Shown: one piece after another, positions 1,289 to 64,000 of the stretch
How positions within the stretch are numbered: position 1 is the first letter of the stretch
Layout: each line of letters opens with the position of its first letter
DNA from: Micrasema longulum
Lineage: Eukaryota; Arthropoda; Insecta; Trichoptera; Brachycentridae
Assembly: GCA_022494885.1 (NCBI GenBank)
Contig: JAGVSM010000826.1
Coordinates: forward strand, 1 to 64,000
Direction of reading: 5' to 3'
Length of the DNA: 64,000 bases
Notes under the pieces: model-generated
What the model saw: the letters and a program-made list of their open reading frames with translations, nothing else
What the model was told of the DNA's origin: nothing
Database searches by the model: none
Made by a program: the position numbers and the translations under genes

Positions 1289-3175
1289 CTATTTTTGATG
1301 GAACCAGTTGTTTGTCAATCGGTAATGAACCATTTCTCCGATAAATGCCACGATTGAAAGTATTGTCCCAATAACTAGTATAATGAAAGGACCCGCTACG
1401 TGAGCTATCTTAATTACAATTGGACTGTCATCTGCTTGAACCTGAGACATTTCAAAATCATCAATCCATTTATCAACGAACCCGGCTTCGGATATCTTAT
1501 AAATCCAGTTGTCCACGCCTTCTTTAAGCGGGGAGAATTTTTGTAGGGCTAGTGAAATCAATTGAGATCCATAGGTCTGCTTTAAAATATTCAAATAACC
1601 CTTTTTTAAATGTTTCCTATTAAACAGTTTCACCCAATCTCTTAAGTGCAATACAGTGGCGCTCTCTCTGTTAAACGCAATTCTCTCCACAATATCGTTG
1701 TATTCAACTGATGAAACAATTTGAAATCTATTATAAATTTCTTTTATGATTTCTTCGTTTACGCTCGAAAGTAAATCAAACGTTATTGTTGTTCCATAAA
1801 AATTCAATCCTTCACCCAACATGTCTTTCATTGTTTGTATATTGTCCTCGTAACTTGTGCTCGTAAGGAATCCTACGAGAGAGCTTTGATACATATTTCT
1901 GAGTATCATTGACATACACATCCATAGTGCCACGATGTAACAAGCAAACCTACCCATTTTTTCAAACTCGGCGGGAAAGCCCAACGTCACTCCCCAAATC
2001 GTTTCTCCGATACTTCTTACTTCCACAGTTTTATTGTAAATTATTAATTTAAGCAGAGATAAGAGAAAAACCAGTCCAATCACTAAACATATTGTTAAAG
2101 TCCACACAATCCACTTAAACGGTAGAAATATTTTTGTAGCCGGGGACGTTTTGTCCGATGAAGCTATTATCCATACTAGATCCGCAGTTATGTATATATT
2201 TGATATGCCAACATAATGAGTATTTTCGGCATTGCAAATGAAGACTCCAACACCAATATCCGTGTTGTTAGCAATTAATTCTCCCATGGCCCCTGTCCAG
2301 TGAGTTCCATTTATATGCCCCCATCGCTCAATTTCTGACACATTGGATGTCAGCTGAATTGAAAAATTTAGCAATTCAGACAATAAATTGATCATATTGC
2401 CCTCGACACCATCCAAAGTAACGGAGTCATCAGTGTTTTGTTTGACTGTCACATAAGTTTCGCGAGATACCGTAGACACACGCACCGGACACCCTCTTAG
2501 ATTTAACGTTTTTTGTGGAAACAAACTAAGGCTTTTAATGTACGAGAAGTTTGTACACACGCCAAGCTCTACCATTGTTGTATCTCTGCACACGGTGGAG
2601 TTGAATGGATAAAATGTGAATAAATGCAACTCTTCGTCAAGATCGGCAACTACAACAACATTTACCATGTTAAATGACGAACAAGCATCCAAAACGTTTT
2701 GAATCACTGCTCTCCGTTTTGTTGAGTTTTCCGAGTCTCGTTTTAACACGAATATGATTCTTCCTGCATAAGAAAATCGATCACTAGGAACTAAATTGAT
2801 ATTAGATATAAAAGATTCCGCGTCATCTGAGACAATTATAAAATTTTCAATGCTGTATTTAGTATAGAAAGGACGATTGTGCATGACCGCGAAAGCTGAG
2901 AAGTTTCTTATATGAAACACAATTTGATTAATGGTTCCTTGAAGCTCTGGATTATCTTTTATTTGTATTCGATCATCTTCTGTATTCGTGGTTACGATAA
3001 TTGGCACCCTTTCTTTACGAGTAAAATGTGCCTCAGTTATGTAACCAACACATGCTCCCAAAGCAATGTTTTCGAAGTACCGCTCATCGTGTTTATCCAT
3101 AAACTCTTCAATGTTACTGGAACAAGATGGCGCAAATAACTCGTACGCAATGAACATAATAAAACATCTAATCAT
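1289..3175 (-). CDS. Divergent ionotropic receptor (IR), intact and intronless
   Basis: This 628-residue single-exon protein has the layout of insect ionotropic receptors, variant ionotropic glutamate receptors that act as chemosensory cation channels in sensory-neuron membranes. A hydrophobic start (residues 1-20) looks like a signal peptide. A poorly conserved N-terminal part precedes ligand-binding lobe S1 (about 228-345). M1 lies at about 353-380 and the pore plus M2 at 392-437, with WGVTLGFP and RNMYQSSLVGFLTS. Lobe S2 (about 441-585) has the typical SPLKEGVDNW...EAGFVDKWIDD ending, and M3 is at about 587-612. The arginine that binds the glutamate carboxylate in true glutamate receptors is not evident where S1 should carry it (around HYVGISNIY, 320-328), as in many divergent IRs. 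Lack of introns also fits that group. The ligand is unknown. The start is the first methionine before the signal peptide; the stop is TAG. Confidence 0.9.
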   Translation of the reverse strand: MIRCFIMFIAYELFAPSCSSNIEEFMDKHDERYFENIALGACVGYITEAHFTRKERVPIIVTTNTEDDRIQIKDNPELQGTINQIVFHIRNFSAFAVMHNRPFYTKYSIENFIIVSDDAESFISNINLVPSDRFSYAGRIIFVLKRDSENSTKRRAVIQNVLDACSSFNMVNVVVVADLDEELHLFTFYPFNSTVCRDTTMVELGVCTNFSYIKSLSLFPQKTLNLRGCPVRVSTVSRETYVTVKQNTDDSVTLDGVEGNMINLLSELLNFSIQLTSNVSEIERWGHINGTHWTGAMGELIANNTDIGVGVFICNAENTHYVGISNIYITADLVWIIASSDKTSPATKIFLPFKWIVWTLTICLVIGLVFLLSLLKLIIYNKTVEVRSIGETIWGVTLGFPAEFEKMGRFACYIVALWMCMSMILRNMYQSSLVGFLTSTSYEDNIQTMKDMLGEGLNFYGTTITFDLLSSVNEEIIKEIYNRFQIVSSVEYNDIVERIAFNRESATVLHLRDWVKLFNRKHLKKGYLNILKQTYGSQLISLALQKFSPLKEGVDNWIYKISEAGFVDKWIDDFEMSQVQADDSPIVIKIAHVAGPFIILVIGTILSIVAFIGEMVHYRLTNNWFHQK

Positions 3176-17120: not shown

Positions 17121-17281
17121 TGTTACATAAAAGTAAGTTGATCAGTATTACGCTTCAGGAACCAGTCCAGGGACTATGAAATATTCTTGATCAAAATATT
17201 TCAAATCAACCATGTCGGGAATCGAACCCGAGACCTCTTGCTTTGTAAGAAAGCACGCTGACCATTACACCACGAGGCCGA
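17121..17281 (-). mobile_element. tRNA-derived SINE, family B, copy 2
   Basis: On the minus strand the head carries box B (GAGGTCTCGGGTTCGATTCC) and a tRNA-like start near 17281. The body ends with the family words CCCTGGACTGGTTCCTGAAG and CTTTTATGTAACA. It lies about 440 bases upstream of the odorant receptor start codon. Confidence 0.65.
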
Positions 17282-41944: not shown

Positions 41945-42066
41945 AATTTTTATGATCGTGATGGTTATCTCCCGACTTCCAGAACCAACCTGCCACTGGA
42001 TTTGCCGATTGTAAAAGCAGTCAGGCAGCTGAACATTATCATTTTGGAGATCGACATCTTTTACAT
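41945..42066 (+). mobile_element. LINE C-terminal remnant (same family as 1-435)
   Basis: The plus strand reads YLPTSRTNLPLDLPIVKAVR and QLNIIILEIDIF. The minus-strand piece at 59628-59800 reads YLPTFKNNLPLVMFKGRAVR and QLNMISSEI. They are the extreme C terminus of one LINE family. It ends where the hAT-like MITE begins. Confidence 0.55.
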
Positions 42067-42073
42067 CAGTAAA

Positions 42074-42360
42074 ACAGGTGGTTTAGTCCTAAATAAAAAA
42101 GTACCGGAGCACACCACCACATGGCAAAGTAGGATGAAAGTGAAAGGGGGAGGGGGGAACACATGTTTAGATTTTTGACAGTTATCGGTAATAAATACGT
42201 TTGTTGTTATTTAAAATCGTTTGAAGAGACTTAGGTAGATATTTTTTTGAAACGTAATATTTGTTCCTGACCAGAGCCGGAGCGCCGCTTCGCTCAGATA
42301 AAAAAAAGTGCCGGAGCGCCGCGCGCCGCTTCGGTGCGCTCCGGCCCGACTACACCACTG
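42074..42360. mobile_element. hAT-like MITE
   Basis: The left end CAGGTGGTTTAGTCCTAAAT leads to GTACCGGAGCAC. The right end, reversed, reads CAGTGGTGTAGTCGGGCCGGAGCGCAC. CAGTGGTGTAGTC is a typical hAT-type terminal repeat. The inside has a GC-rich right half (GCCGGAGCGCCGC twice) and no transposase. Flanking 8-bp duplications are not convincing. Confidence 0.5.
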
Positions 42361-58700: not shown

Positions 58701-59627
58701 TCAAAATACGCTGCTATTGGTTTACAAATGTAGCACCTTATATACCACTGGAAAAAAATAATTGATAATTCTGACCTTACAGTATACTTATATTATAAGT
58801 TAACACGAAAGTGTATTTGTTTGCTTTTTTCTTGTTTCTATCGCGTTCCAATCTTCTTAATGTTTAGCACAAAGATATCCGAAAAGCTAACAATTGTCAT
58901 AAGCTACTTTTGTTTTAAAAAATAATCCTTTTTCGGGAAAACTTTTAGTGGAAAATTAATACTCAGTTAAAAATGAATTAATAATTAAACAGAATGGCGA
59001 TTGTACGTCGCCATGATAGTTGATAGACCGGCAAGCGATATATACTACTTTTTATACAGAAAAAAAATCTCATGAGATCGGAATAATTCTTATTGTTAAA
59101 CGCCAAAACTTATTCATTTACAAATATCTCCTTAATACCACGCGAGCGAAGGGAAAGAAAATCCAATTCTGTAGGAAATTATACTTATTTGTATGATTTC
59201 TTTATTCAAAACACGTAACCGTCGAGAATACATATTTTTTTGATACAAAATTAAAGTAAAATAATTCTTTGCTTCCGACTAAATGGAAAAAATACGTTGT
59301 TATATTTCACGTTTTGTATGCAACAAAGTTGATACATGTTGACGAAAACGTAATTATGATTTAATTTAACTTTTAACATTTTTAAAACAACATTTTTTTG
59401 GTGAATTCGGCTCTTAGTCAAAACTGCTATCCATTGCATAACGGAATGATCAATTGATGGTGATTTCATTTATTTTTTGTTATACCAAAACACCATTAAT
59501 AATGAAATAAAAATGAATAAGGCGATGAATTGAAACAAAATACCATGTCAAGAACCCTTCAACAATGGCCCAATATTAATAAAGCGCAATACTCCCAAAT
59601 TAGAGTATAAGCCTCTTAATAATAGTT
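58701..59627. other. Intronic spacer
   Basis: No supported feature; the minus-strand frame 59251-59469 has no recognised content. Confidence 0.35.
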
Positions 59628-59800
59628 TCACTGATATGAAAGGTATCGGATTTCCGAAGAGATCATGTTAAGCTGCCTGACTGCTCTTCCTTTGAACATG
59701 ACCAGAGGCAGGTTGTTTTTGAAAGTCGGGAGGTAAAATAGTATGTGCTGACGCTGCCGTAGATATTCATCCGGAACGTAAAATCTCATCATCATCATCA
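59628..59800 (-). mobile_element. LINE C-terminal remnant (same family as 1-435)
   Basis: The minus-strand frame has MRFYVPDEYLRQRQHILFYL, then PTFKNNLPLVMFKGRAVRQL. It overlaps the end of the fragment at 1-435 (YVPNDSLRHRQLKLF) and extends it to the C terminus. A short ATC repeat (about 59788-59802) separates it from the next fragment. Confidence 0.6.
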
Positions 59801-60270
59801 TCGTGTCATCTTTGATGATAAATGCACTTTTGTTCCCCATATGAATGAGATGGTAAATAGAATCACAAAAACCCTACGCTTTGTTATCAGAACCACAAGA
59901 GAGTTTAAGTTTTTTGATGCATTAAAAATACTATACATGACCCTAGTAAGAAGCCAGTTAGAACATGGGTCCTCAGTTTGGTCTCCTCATTATGTTACCC
60001 ATATAAACAGCATGGAGAAGGCTCAACACAAGTTTTAAAGATTTATAAATTGCAAATTAAACATTCCAATTGAAGAGCTCAACTATAAATGTTTAATGAA
60101 GCAGTTAAAATTAATATGTATTAGTTATCACCTTCTATCGAAGGGAAATTTCAGATTTTGTGCAGCTTTTCAAGTTATTAATTAATGTTGTTGACAGTCA
60201 CAAACTTAAAAATTGTGTGAATTTTTATGTGAGACAGCGTGGAACGAGACAAAATACTTCTTTTGCTGTT
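59801..60270 (+). mobile_element. LINE reverse-transcriptase C-terminal fragment
   Basis: The plus-strand frame reads VIFDDKCTFVPHMNEMVNRI, TKTLRFVIRTTREFKFFDAL, KILYMTLVRSQLEHGSSVWS and INSMEKAQHKF. This is the DxKLxFxxHIxxxxxKAxRxLGFIxRxxxxF...LYxxLVRSxLEYxSxVWSP...IExVQxKF block of jockey/CR1 reverse transcriptase. A stop follows KF, and the downstream part continues in decayed form (RFINCKLNIPIEEL) to about 60270. It belongs to the same broad group as 1-435, but it is oriented opposite to its neighbour at 59628. Confidence 0.7.
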
Positions 60271-60679
60271 GATTTGCATAGTTTAAACTTTGCCAAATAC
60301 CAATTAATTTATACCAATTAAAATCATAACTTTTTAATCACTTCTTTTTTAAATTATAAAAATGTACTAAGTGTTATACTTATTTTACTGTTTATGCTAT
60401 GGTACATCGCCACTGTTACTTCAATACTTTTTTATTTAAACCCTTTATTTATTTACACTCGCATCATATCATCTGTCAAAATTACAAACGTCAAAAATTT
60501 ACTCCTCTAAACAAATCAAGAATTTTAGAAATTTAACTGTTAAAATAAACATAATTTTTATCTAAATAGTGCAAAAAAGTGATTTTAAATATTTAAAATA
60601 GTTTTTGTTTATTTTTATACTGAACTGTGCTGAAGAAAAGAGTGATTAAAGATTCCCAAAAAACCTACCTACTTTAAAG

Positions 60680-61540
60680 ATGGCCCCAAAAAAGGACTCA
60701 AAATTAAAGACTACTGAACCTTTTCCAGCATCACCAGCTGCAGCCGCCCAACTCTTCTAGGCTAACTTGGAGTTGGCAAACGCGCTATCTGCCCTTCAGA
60801 CAGAGGTCAATCGGCTAAGTAAAAGTTTTGAAATAATCCATCAGCAGATAAGTCAGGTCACCAACCAATACGCAACTATTCTGGAGGCCATCAAATTTGT
60901 CAGTGAACAGAATGAAACGCTTAGCAAACGCCTGACAGAACTGGAAGGAAAAGAAAACGAGAATAAAAAAAATCATCAAAATCAACTAGAATTGATAAAG
61001 AGAGTGGATTATTTGGAAGGAAAATTAGACGAAGAGGAAAAAATAAAAATACAAAATAATATTGAAATCCGAGGATGTCCTGATAATCCCCAGGAAACAA
61101 ATAGTTATCTGTCGAAAATCATCAATAATATAGCTACGATAATAAGCTGGGAACTGGGCCAAGAAATCGCATCCATAGAACGCTCGAGGAGGCTTCCAAC
61201 ACAAAATACTCCAAGCTCCATTGTTTTAACAATGCGTACCAAAGAAGGTAAAGACTCTTTCCTGCAAAAAATCAAAACATACAATAAGGAGTGCATAAAA
61301 AATAAAAAACAGTGTATAAATTCAACTCTTATCGGCTTAAAGGACATAAAACATACAAACATTTTTATCACGGAACAATTGACAAGAAGGTGCAAGTTTC
61401 TGCTGGCGAAAACCAAACAGTTAGCTAAAACCAAAGGAATAAAGTATGTATGGACCAAAAACGGAAATATTTTTACTCGTAAAGCAGAAGGTGAAGGATG
61501 TTTTCGGGTTAAAAGCGAGACAGATCTACTTAAGCTATAA
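60680..61540 (+). CDS. LINE ORF1 protein (coiled coil plus FP25-like domain), one internal stop
   Basis: From ATG 60680 the frame would encode 286 residues, but codon 27 is TAG (60758-60760). Beyond it the frame is open from residue 28 to the TAA at 61538. ORF1 proteins bind LINE RNA and form the ribonucleoprotein. Residues about 35-125 are heptad-rich and predicted coiled coil (trimerisation in related proteins). NIEIRGCPDNPQE at about 127 begins a conserved domain resembling the baculovirus FP25 / L1 ORF1 fold. It has RSRRLP, the SSIVLTMRTKEGKDSFL strand-helix, ITEQLTRRCKFLLAKTKQLA and the YVWTKNGNIFTRK end. No CCHC zinc knuckles were seen. The alanine/proline-rich N-terminal 26 residues precede the TAG. 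Translation could also start downstream at an internal codon. Confidence 0.75.
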
Positions 61541-63560
61541 ATATATAAAATCTCCGCACTGTAATATGATTCATTGCTCCACTCAATATACTTTGTGCGT
61601 CTCTGTTTATAAAATTACAAAAATAATTAAAGAAATGTCGACCATTACAAACCTTACTCATAATTCTCATCTTATGGTTAACTATTCTCCAGCTTATAAA
61701 GCATTGTACATAATTATATCCATCTTTCTATTGTATTGTAATGCAGAACGTCATAATATTTTACCTTTAATCTTTATGCATGTACATCTGCTAATTGTTA
61801 AGCTTGATATAAGTCTCATAATATGCTATAGTATTTTAGATAAGATTGAGCAGATTACTTGTGCTATTCAATATTTAAAGAACTTTCAGTGTATCATAGC
61901 AAGTTCTATATTCATGAGACACACAATCCCAAAGAGATCTCAGAGATTGTTTTTATTATATAATGATAAAACAACATTACATCACTTTCAATTCAACCGG
62001 AGCAATGCACACAGAAATAGTATTGTTGTCAAATATATTCATAGAACGACAAACTGTCATAGTCAATTCATAGAAATTCAAAAACAAATTATTTTAAACC
62101 ATAGATTTATTGTATTCATTATTTTTATATCTATTTTTCTATTCTTTCTCGTGCCGTATTATTATTTTGCTGTGTTAAAATCTTATATGCCAGAGAATCA
62201 GAATAAAAAAACTACTTTTAGTTTTAATCAAATATGTTCATACGAAATTCTATCTTTCTTCCAAGTTTTAAAAAAATGGCCTTATTATTTATACTATTCA
62301 TATACTTATAAATTCAATTTCTTAGATTCAAATTATATTATGGATATGGAATTACGTTCCTCTATATTTGAATCAAATTGGATTACTATGCTACTGATCT
62401 GTAAATATACTATATTTCTACCTCAGATACGAGAAATAGTTTTACACTATTTTTCTATCTCATGCTACTTTTTTATTGTTGTCTTATTTTTTCATTGTAT
62501 AATTCTATTACGTCATATATATACAAGTCATGAAAAATTAAACTATATTATTTCATTACGTTATTACAATGCTAAAGTATGTTCTTATTATTGTATTTTA
62601 CTATATTGCTACCGTTTTATTTTTGTTTACGTACTCTTTATACTGTCATTTTCGTATTGTGTGGCAAAAGATTACACAGCACTGAATGAGACTACACTGA
62701 ATTTTACATATTTATATACTAATATAACCTTGAACACTTTTGACTCTAACCAAATGAATCTAAATACTGTAAAATTTGTCACCCTTTATACCTATGTTTA
62801 TAACGATTTTACTTTTCTCTTTATATTATTTACATTGAATCTCTACTTTTGTGAAGAATGCCTATATTTTTTGTATCCTTACTTTTTAACAATTCTAAAA
62901 ATGATTTATTTTAATATCATCTTAGTTTCATATACATATAACTTTACTTTTGTGCTTCTATTTATTAAACCAAATTTTTTATATTGTTTTTATAGCATGT
63001 TCTATTTTTCTTTGTCAGCTCACTTTTTATATCTGTATATCATGATATTTATAACTACGGTTTATTTTAAGGTTAATTTAAATGACTCCACAATGTACCT
63101 CTTATACCAGGATTTAAATATTGCATTTATACTTTCTTGTCATAAATGTAATAATTACAATGATTTTTATTTTGCTCTTTTATACTATATACTGACTCTT
63201 ATCTACATTTATAAATATATGTATCTGTACTTTCTATTAAATAATTGTAAAATTCTCACTGTATGTATCTTAAGTATATGCTGTAAAATTTCTATGACTC
63301 TGCTACCGTATAAAATGATCTACATAGTATCACTCCCAGTAATCTCTATAATGACTATGACAATGTTTACTATTTTTTTGGATGCTGCAAGTGCTACGAT
63401 TCACTCTATAATCTTTTATATAAAGCTTTTCTCAAAAGAGTTAACGACTGAAAATAATCTTATTCAAACTGTTCTGTTGAATTATCTTGTAAATTCTGTA
63501 AATCAGTCAATTATTTTTGTATCACTCATTGTAGTACTGTTTTCTCTAGGGCGCGAGTGA
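61446..63560 (+). CDS. Unrecognised polytopic membrane protein encoded within a LINE
   Basis: The open frame has up to 704 codons. The first 40 overlap ORF1 in another frame, so I favour the ATG at 61566 (residue 41), 25 bases after the ORF1 stop, or ATG 61635 (residue 64). The protein is rich in Tyr, Phe, Ile and Leu. About 11-13 hydrophobic segments can be placed: 84-98, 105-130, 220-244, 331-356, 377-405, 440-466, 470-508 (possibly two), 511-540, 573-598, 601-618, 622-645 and 683-700. A basic, polar loop (157-218) follows the second. Three N-x-T sequons cluster at 414-430 in one loop, suggesting a luminal or outer side. I recognise no family: not a reverse transcriptase, endonuclease, chemoreceptor or envelope protein. 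It uses about 70 Tyr codons (TAT/TAC) with no TAA/TAG in frame, hard to explain without translation. Function unknown. Confidence 0.7.
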   Translation: MYGPKTEIFLLVKQKVKDVFGLKARQIYLSYKYIKSPHCNMIHCSTQYTLCVSVYKITKIIKEMSTITNLTHNSHLMVNYSPAYKALYIIISIFLLYCNAERHNILPLIFMHVHLLIVKLDISLIICYSILDKIEQITCAIQYLKNFQCIIASSIFMRHTIPKRSQRLFLLYNDKTTLHHFQFNRSNAHRNSIVVKYIHRTTNCHSQFIEIQKQIILNHRFIVFIIFISIFLFFLVPYYYFAVLKSYMPENQNKKTTFSFNQICSYEILSFFQVLKKWPYYLYYSYTYKFNFLDSNYIMDMELRSSIFESNWITMLLICKYTIFLPQIREIVLHYFSISCYFFIVVLFFHCIILLRHIYTSHEKLNYIISLRYYNAKVCSYYCILLYCYRFIFVYVLFILSFSYCVAKDYTALNETTLNFTYLYTNITLNTFDSNQMNLNTVKFVTLYTYVYNDFTFLFILFTLNLYFCEECLYFLYPYFLTILKMIYFNIILVSYTYNFTFVLLFIKPNFLYCFYSMFYFSLSAHFLYLYIMIFITTVYFKVNLNDSTMYLLYQDLNIAFILSCHKCNNYNDFYFALLYYILTLIYIYKYMYLYFLLNNCKILTVCILSICCKISMTLLPYKMIYIVSLPVISIMTMTMFTIFLDAASATIHSIIFYIKLFSKELTTENNLIQTVLLNYLVNSVNQSIIFVSLIVVLFSLGRE
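63535..63549 (+). promoter_or_regulatory. Splice-acceptor-like site at the ORF2 border
   Basis: TACTGTTTTCTCTAG has a pyrimidine tract and AG. The TAG is also the last stop of the ORF2 frame, which is open from 63550 on. Splicing here would remove the membrane-protein frame. No matching donor was identified with confidence. Confidence 0.3.
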
Positions 63561-63600
63561 ACCACATAGTACGTTTGATGAATTTGACCTTATACCTCTG

Positions 63601-64000
63601 ATGGAAACCATAGAATCAAATGTTGCTAAACAATTTTTAAATAATGGTTCTTCCATCAAGGTATTTTCTATGAATATTAGAAGCATAAACAAAAATTTTG
63701 ATGCCCTAATGGTTGTTTTAACTGAACTAAATTGTGATATAGATGTTATCATACTGTCAGAATGCTGGATAAATGAATATTATATTCCTAAAACTATTGG
63801 AAACTACAACCAATGTCATTCTTGTAATAATAAACTACAAAATGATGGTGTCGTTATATTTGTAAAAAGTAAACTAGCTTTTACAAGTAAGGAAGTATGC
63901 TTTCCACATTCCAATTGTATTGAAATTGAAATTAATAATATGATGACTATTCTAGCTATCTACCGTTCTCCTCACAACACAAACATAACGTCTTTCTTAT
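63601..64000 (+). CDS. LINE ORF2, endonuclease N-terminus (partial)
   Basis: From ATG 63601 the frame is open to the window end (133 codons). It begins the apurinic-like (EEP) endonuclease domain that nicks target DNA for LINE integration. Motifs: SMNIRSINKNFDAL (catalytic Asn at about residue 25), DIDVIILSECW (catalytic Glu at about 54), NDGVVIFVKS and MTILAIYRSP. The reverse transcriptase should follow outside the window. The frame could extend upstream to 63550 (acidic ASEPHSTFDEFDLIPL) if joined by splicing. No damage is visible. The group is CR1/jockey-like by motif wording. Confidence 0.8.
   Translation, partial: METIESNVAKQFLNNGSSIKVFSMNIRSINKNFDALMVVLTELNCDIDVIILSECWINEYYIPKTIGNYNQCHSCNNKLQNDGVVIFVKSKLAFTSKEVCFPHSNCIEIEINNMMTILAIYRSPHNTNITSFL

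Follow-up and report, generated by a model that had tools for sequence, protein, structure and literature searches.

Between ORF1 and ORF2 of a long interspersed nuclear element (LINE) of the trichopteran Micrasema longulum we found a third open reading frame (ORF), of 704 codons, which seems to be kept open by selection while the amino acids that it encodes are mostly unselected. The element lies at the end of a stretch of 64,000 nucleotides, positions 1 to 64,000 of the forward strand of contig JAGVSM010000826.1 (this whole stretch is called the window), and middle frames that are unrelated in sequence, of 451, 619, at least 480 and 104 codons, occur in other LINE families of the same genome. 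From these sequence data there is a slightly better than even chance that this ORF serves as a translated spacer, which would hand ribosomes from ORF1 to ORF2, and not a membrane protein.

The element and its middle frame

The features of the element are the following.

60469..64000, plus strand: copy of LINE family A, cut on its 3' side by the window end; alignments of the copies start at 60469
60680..61540, plus strand: ORF1, with a Baculo_FP_2nd domain at its end (profile search, 5.7e-15)
61443..61540, plus strand: overlap of ORF1 and the middle frame, the latter being +1 relative to ORF1
61446..63560, plus strand: middle ORF, 704 codons from ATG to TGA, in a frame open from 61443; amino acid content and evolution near those of unconstrained sequence
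62621..62622, plus strand: A/B junction, where family B switches to unrelated DNA and the middle frame stays open
63550..63554, plus strand: GGCGC at the end of the middle frame, its sole occurrence in the interval, reading Gly-Ala in the ORF2 frame
63550..64000, plus strand: ORF2 open frame, +1 relative to the middle frame, with an ATG at 63601

The element, which is about 6.7 kb long in a sister copy (L010), is a LINE, that is, a retrotransposon without long terminal repeats (LTRs): its ORF2 encodes an endonuclease and a reverse transcriptase, its ORF1 has a Baculo_FP_2nd domain, and its copies are dispersed, with 5' truncation. Only the first 133 codons of ORF2 fall inside the window; in L010, ORF2 contains Exo_endo_phos (EEP endonuclease, 3.5e-7) followed by RVT_1 (5.4e-34). 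Baculo_FP_2nd is usual in insect LINE ORF1 and is preceded here, judging by eye, by a probable coiled coil. About 8 bases directly 5' of 60469 are common to four of the seven other family A copies (L010, L011, L013, L014). The copy in the window is probably dead, because its ORF1 carries an in-frame TAG at 60758-60760, where all 16 other copies covering the site read TCG, and because its ORF2 has no more than 502 open codons.

A preliminary description, made from the letters of the window, had reported an extra frame of up to 704 codons between the two ORFs, and the frame is indeed there, open in many copies and in several families. Its spacing was also described correctly, with an internal ATG at 61566 that lies 25 nt past the ORF1 stop and 40 nt between the middle stop and the ORF2 ATG. 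We counted 73 TAT or TAC codons (about 70 had been given) and 25 TGT or TGC codons ("many"), without one in-frame stop, while over 61446-63600 the other two plus-strand frames contain 59 and 53 stops. Under position-specific base frequencies the probability of such a stop-free frame is about 6e-18.

Copies of the element and the switch to family B

Copies were sought in the genome to which the window belongs (584 Mb, 5184 contigs), where the element region has at least 46 matches, full and 5'-truncated, on many contigs. Eight copies of family A span the whole middle frame, which is open in six of them, at 705 codons; ORF1 has less than half the length of this frame, and three of the eight copies have it intact. 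One copy (L009, on C599) is 99.5% identical to the window over 3911 bp, including all 380 bp of upstream flank on its contig. It probably represents an allele of the locus in the window, which leaves five of seven independent loci with an open middle frame. In three 5'-truncated copies (L016, L017 and L018) the frame is open to its stop over 671, 662 and 641 codons, respectively, and the search output places one TAA in the longer aligned stretch of L018 (C332). The middle ORF is therefore not a unique insertion at this locus, an alternative that the preliminary description had raised and that was checked here within the same genome.

The ten fetched copies of a second family, B (L019-L028), match the window at 96.8-97.8% identity upstream of 62621 and have unrelated DNA beyond, sharing the first 56% of the middle frame with family A. 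In L022 the frame continues for 261 codons past the junction and leads to a different ORF2, 36% identical to that of A. The whole frame is open in four of the ten (L022, L023, L026, L027), and the 3' part that belongs to B is stop-free in all 13 copies among the full-length matches listed. One-base breaks recur at the same A-rich places in families A and B, in ORF1 and in the middle frame alike, and for this reason some of them may be assembly errors.

Middle frames in other LINE families

The N-terminus of ORF2 has at least 123 matches in the genome, and the DNA upstream of ORF2 was fetched at 23 loci (L029-L051). A middle frame is present at seven: L031 (451 codons) and its sister L045, in which it is broken by a frame change, L032 and L043 (619 codons), L034 (250 codons), and L035 and L051 (104 codons). 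Five loci are compact (L030 and L039, which form one family, L036, L038 and L050), at four the spacer is long and closed, as discussed below, and seven (L037, L040, L041, L042, L047, L048, L049) were dropped as truncated, uninformative or joined to unrelated upstream DNA. Two further loci, L057 and L058, were found through the 3' part of B, and each combines a relative of this part with a further, different ORF2; the frame is broken once in L058. The middle frame is stop-free in all five L032-type copies matched over the full query and in three of four L031-type copies.

Stops in the three plus-strand frames of the inter-ORF interval number 51, 0 and 54 in A, 47, 0 and 38 in B (including the part shared with A), 0, 37 and 35 in L031, 0, 60 and 44 in L032, and 0, 7 and 4 in L035. 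Among six middle frames (A, B, L031, L032, L034, L035) blastp found similarity only between A and B and between L031 and L032, pairs that share DNA, whereas the ORF1s of the families are related to each other. L031 and L032 share ORF1 and the beginning of the middle frame and part at L031:1908; this is, with 62621 in A and B, the second chimeric junction inside a middle frame, and both leave the frame open. A further copy of the L032 family (L056, 1-2184) has a one-base deletion in the region where ORF1 and the middle frame overlap, so that a single frame, open for at least 727 codons, runs across both.

Selection on stops and on amino acids

Nonsynonymous and synonymous changes (N:S) were counted among copies assuming a 2:1 transition bias; these counts pool singletons, including changes after insertion and errors. 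In family A the middle frame gave 66:21, about 1.05 of the expected ratio, against about 0.4-0.5 for ORF1 and ORF2 (p 0.018 in this family alone). The pooled middle frames gave 167:64, or 0.85 of the expectation (confidence interval, CI, 0.63-1.15; without the comparison of B with L057, which brings it to 0.93), while ORF1 and ORF2 together gave 119:91, or 0.43 (CI 0.32-0.57; Fisher p 0.0007). By family, the ratio was 0.91 of expected in the middle frame of L032 and 0.93 in the 3' part of that of B, compared with 0.31 for ORF1 and 0.55 for ORF2 of B. Fixed differences between A and B are too few to be informative (5N:2S in the middle frame, 1N:1S in ORF1; copy-level ratios 0.59 and 0.30).

Between families, the ratio of nonsynonymous to synonymous substitution rates (dN/dS) of L031 against L032 is 1.72 in the middle frame (CI 0.74-6.7) and 0.29 in ORF1, and where the two frames overlap all four changes are silent in ORF1 and change an amino acid in the middle frame. 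B and L057 differ with a dN/dS of 1.28 (CI 0.73-2.6) over 93 ungapped codons at 76% nucleotide identity, with no stop. Over their last 40 or so codons, in an alignment read by eye, they use different reading frames between compensating one-base indels and end at the same TAG. The middle frame of L057 (3-1445) contains degenerate tandem units of 135 nt (45 codons), whose pooled dN/dS is 0.93.

Stops behave differently from amino acids. Only three of 234 changes in the middle frames create a stop, where 11 were expected (p 0.004); in ORF1 and ORF2 it is four of 214. When B was evolved neutrally to the distance of L057 (d 0.24), 7.9 stops were expected and none of 2000 runs remained stop-free, while no stop is seen; the simulation used the 261 codons of B, of which only part is aligned without gaps and the last 40 or so are read in another frame. 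For five repeat units of L057, simulation gave 5.6 expected stops and again none is seen (P 0.002). Since stops are avoided and amino acid change is near neutral, selection seems to keep the middle frame open and to leave its amino acids mostly alone. The preliminary description had named stops together with neutral dN/dS in other copies as speaking against its protein; the near-neutral dN/dS is what we find, and the stops are not.

These data bear on the possibility that the frame has no current function and was inherited open, through in-frame duplication of stop-free units, with its decay yet to come. The units of L057, where ten of the 12 listed self-match spacings are multiples of 3, would fit this, as would the near-neutral dN/dS. 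However, the units have diverged so far that stops would be expected and none is seen, B and L057 likewise stay open where stops are expected, and the middle frame of A, searched for internal repeats, has none beyond chance, so that this explanation has in our view a very small probability. A fast-evolving accessory protein, probably membrane-associated and engaged in an arms race with host silencing, would have a dN/dS of about 1 or above; it would account for the avoidance of stops, for the two point estimates above 1 and for tandem units that keep the frame. Both intervals include 1, however, and the units of L057 fall just below it.

Does the middle frame encode a protein?

The preliminary description took the product for a polytopic membrane protein with 11-13 hydrophobic segments and a cluster of three N-glycosylation sequons. 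Both counts are accurate: twelve Kyte-Doolittle segments, some overlapping, peak above 1.4, and the sequons NET, NFT and NIT lie at residues 414-426. The null was simulated DNA that matched in dinucleotide composition and had its stops removed. The middle frame of A then has 9 hydrophobic segments where 9.3 are expected, and the 3' part of B has 3 (5.1 expected), L031 4 (3.4), L034 3 (3.5) and L035 1 (0.4). A codon-position statistic gave z values of 0.9 for A, 2.1 for the 3' part of B and 1.6, -0.5, -0.4 and 0.9 for the other four middle frames, while known ORFs reached 6.5 and 5.9 (ORF2) and 1.9, 3.7 and 4.4 (ORF1); the value for the 3' part of B thus falls within the range of ORF1, next to the weakest of the three. 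The six middle frames thus have little coding signal beyond the absence of stops. Glycine makes up 0.4% of the whole middle frame of A and only one of the 672 codons outside the overlap with ORF1, under the expectation from its nucleotides, and T peaks at the third codon position instead of the second. The hydrophobic character can be attributed to the T-rich DNA.

Homology searches agree with the earlier statement that the product is assignable to no family. The middle ORF of A has no relative in Pfam, PHROGs, NCBIfam, the PDB sequences or a set of 5.8 billion proteins; one PDB match at E 0.5 was taken as chance, and the large set covers such elements poorly, because ORF1 is also without a match there. 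No Pfam domain was found in the middle frames of A, L031, L032 and L057. Viral contigs contain no relatives of the middle ORF, of ORF1 or of the start of ORF2, prokaryote contigs none of the middle ORF or the ORF2 start, and phages and plasmids none of the middle ORF; short blastn matches were taken as chance. Structure prediction from the single sequence was uninformative (mean predicted local distance difference test score, pLDDT, 37.9; predicted template modelling score, pTM, 0.25).

The polytopic membrane protein is therefore not supported: composition and hydropathy are close to the null, amino acid change is near neutral (the L031 family excepted), and the searches found no homologues. 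The same tests of composition, hydropathy, selection and homology speak against a captured host gene, which the preliminary description had also suggested: it has no recognisable relatives, and the pooled middle frames show no purifying selection on amino acids. As to the fast-evolving accessory protein, it could draw on a hydropathy of A slightly more clustered than random and on some constraint inside the L031 family; the near-random composition of the six middle frames, the scarcity of glycine, the position of T and the absence of Pfam domains point the other way, and we consider it unlikely.

Junctions between the frames

The middle frame overlaps ORF1 by 98 nt in A and by about 155 nt in L031 and L032. 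At its other end, the ORF2 AUG stands at -1 relative to the middle stop in L032 (AUGA), at -5 in L035 and at -11 in L031, a stop/start overlap in all three; in A there is the gap of 40 nt. At the junctions of A, B, L057/L058 and L034 the motif GGCGC is found, once per searched stretch (0.03-0.06 expected), and it is absent from the searched stretches of L031, L032, L035, L029 and L033. All ten fetched copies of family A have GGGCGCGA at the junction and six of ten family B copies have GGCGCTAG, which was not in the range searched for L020, L024, L025 and L026. ORF2 is +1 at GGCGC in A, B and L057, while the copy of L034 is broken and its frame not settled. In A the Gly-Ala of GGCGC precedes the first AUG of ORF2, which hints that this ORF2 may be read from before that AUG, and GGCGC could be a +1 frameshift signal.

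If so, +1 frameshifts might join the middle frame and ORF2, and perhaps ORF1, into a polyprotein in which the middle part is a long unconstrained linker. In A, B, L031, L035 and L057 the step from the middle frame to ORF2 is +1, the ORF2 of family B (L022, 3290-6328 in element orientation) lacks a Met before codon 118, the Gly-Ala of A lies upstream of its first AUG, and the conserved junction would be read xGG CGC, CGG and CGC together being one of 40 Arg codons in the ORF2 of A. These codons are less rare in the ORF2 of B (4 of 36) and in the ORF1 of A (4 of 13), however, and L032 is +2 with its AUGA overlap, L031 and L035 have overlapping AUGs, and L057 has an ORF2-frame Met ahead of GGCGC; the frameshift itself is putative. 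A polyprotein appears to us decidedly improbable.

The base composition of the middle frame of A, T-rich and G-poor, and TTTTCTCTAG/G at its end would suit a retained intron, kept stop-free so that unspliced genomic RNA escapes nonsense-mediated decay. The middle frame is out of the ORF1 frame in A, B, L031 and L032, however, and no end like TTTTCTCTAG/G is present at the L031 and L032 junctions, so that this reading is hardly credible.

A proposed translated spacer and the evidence against it

The data show a frame that is open, that recurs with unrelated sequences, that avoids stops while its amino acids change at a near-neutral rate, and that has the junction geometry just described; we infer that the middle frame would be translated, that ORF2 may depend on it, and which mechanism would act at each junction. 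Selection on the LINE would preserve an open frame that begins inside the 3' end of ORF1 and extends to where ORF2 starts; ribosomes that have finished ORF1 would move into this frame, travel about 2 kb along it and arrive at ORF2. The peptide produced meanwhile would be largely unconstrained, its hydrophobicity a by-product of T-rich DNA. In L031, L032 and L035 ORF2 would be reached by termination and reinitiation at the overlap of stop and AUG, and in A, B, L057 and L034 at the conserved GGCGC, possibly by a +1 shift or by reinitiation in A, B and L057. Because the sequence of such a spacer is free, it could also serve as a zone where the 5' and 3' modules of LINEs are exchanged without loss of function. 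That several LINE lineages of one genome maintain translated, sequence-neutral spacers of hundreds of codons, both as ribosome conduit and as exchange zone, with selection acting on whether ribosomes can read the RNA and not on what they make from it, is a possibility that we put somewhat short of even.

Several observations weigh against the translated spacer. The relay gives no reason for retaining 2 kb of spacer. The main objection is that a long LINE spacer can stay closed, as in four of the 23 surveyed loci (L029, L044, L046, L033). In one lineage (L029, L044 and L033) the spacers (0.77-1.08 kb, A-rich) contain 18-43 stops in every plus-strand frame, and ORF2 is nevertheless intact, open for 988, 988 and 1031 codons, respectively (the first two copies share 99% identity). 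Elements of this kind would have to reach ORF2 in some other way. The interval of L046 has no open stretch above 85 codons and also holds an insertion. The middle frame is broken in six of the ten fetched family B copies. The frame relations are not uniform either, ORF1 to middle frame being +1 in A, B, L031 and L032 and 0 in L035, and middle frame to ORF2 being +2 in L032, against the +1 given above for the others; in L057, with its Met upstream, GGCGC need not mark the start of ORF2. Some signs of a protein also persist: the middle frame of L032 has 7 hydrophobic segments where 3.7 are expected (z 2.0), hydropathy along that of A is slightly more uneven than the null (p about 0.01-0.02), N/S is 0.44 of the expectation in the L031 family, which indicates some amino acid constraint, and 0.67 in the 5' part of B, and in family B alone the middle frame does not differ significantly from the ORFs (p 0.19).

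Elsewhere in the window

Upstream of the element and on the same strand, at about 59820-60160, the translation read by eye suggests a C-terminal ORF2 remnant of another LINE. A 112-bp repeat occurs at 59625-59736 and, on the minus strand, at 41965-42075 (76% identity). On the minus strand there are also an intact ionotropic-receptor-like ORF of 628 amino acids (1289-3175; LBD_receptor, Lig_chan), of a kind that points to an arthropod, and a tRNA-like gene (17206-17280; tRNA-Cys according to ARAGORN, 39.9 bits in Rfam).

Comparison with known systems

In the parts of the open-access literature that were searched, no LINE with such a middle ORF was found described. A spacer open in one frame and near neutral in sequence makes the reinitiation idea directly testable. 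If the translated spacer is real, it is a long ORF whose product is beside the point, and a caution for gene annotation that relies on ORF length.

Additional ORFs are known from LTR elements of bdelloid rotifers, whose ORF3s include some with transmembrane domains, according to the text available from PMC5408684. The likeness is that of a retroelement with an extra ORF; those, however, are third ORFs, several with env, esterase or exonuclease domains, while here it is a LINE that has the ORF, placed between its ORF1 and ORF2 and with little protein-like constraint. For L1, the sections available of PMC4072516 call termination just 5' of the ORF2 start key, and describe a 445-bp intergenic region in megabat L1 family 1A, a spacer that is inhibitory. 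As in that family, a long spacer between ORF1 and ORF2 has persisted in evolution; unlike it, the spacers of A, B, L031 and L032 measure 1.2-2.0 kb and have one stop-free frame. A parallel in geometry is the LINE SART1, where a UAAUG provides stop-start coupling between the two ORFs (Kojima et al. 2005, as described in the part of PMC5972666 that was available). In L031, L032 and L035, too, ORF2 begins on top of or next to the stop of the preceding frame, but that frame is an extra ORF of 104-619 codons and not ORF1, and the AUG is 40 nt away in A and absent in B (L022). By analogy, a ribosome relay that is known in short form in SART1 and discussed for L1 would here be stretched over an extra frame.

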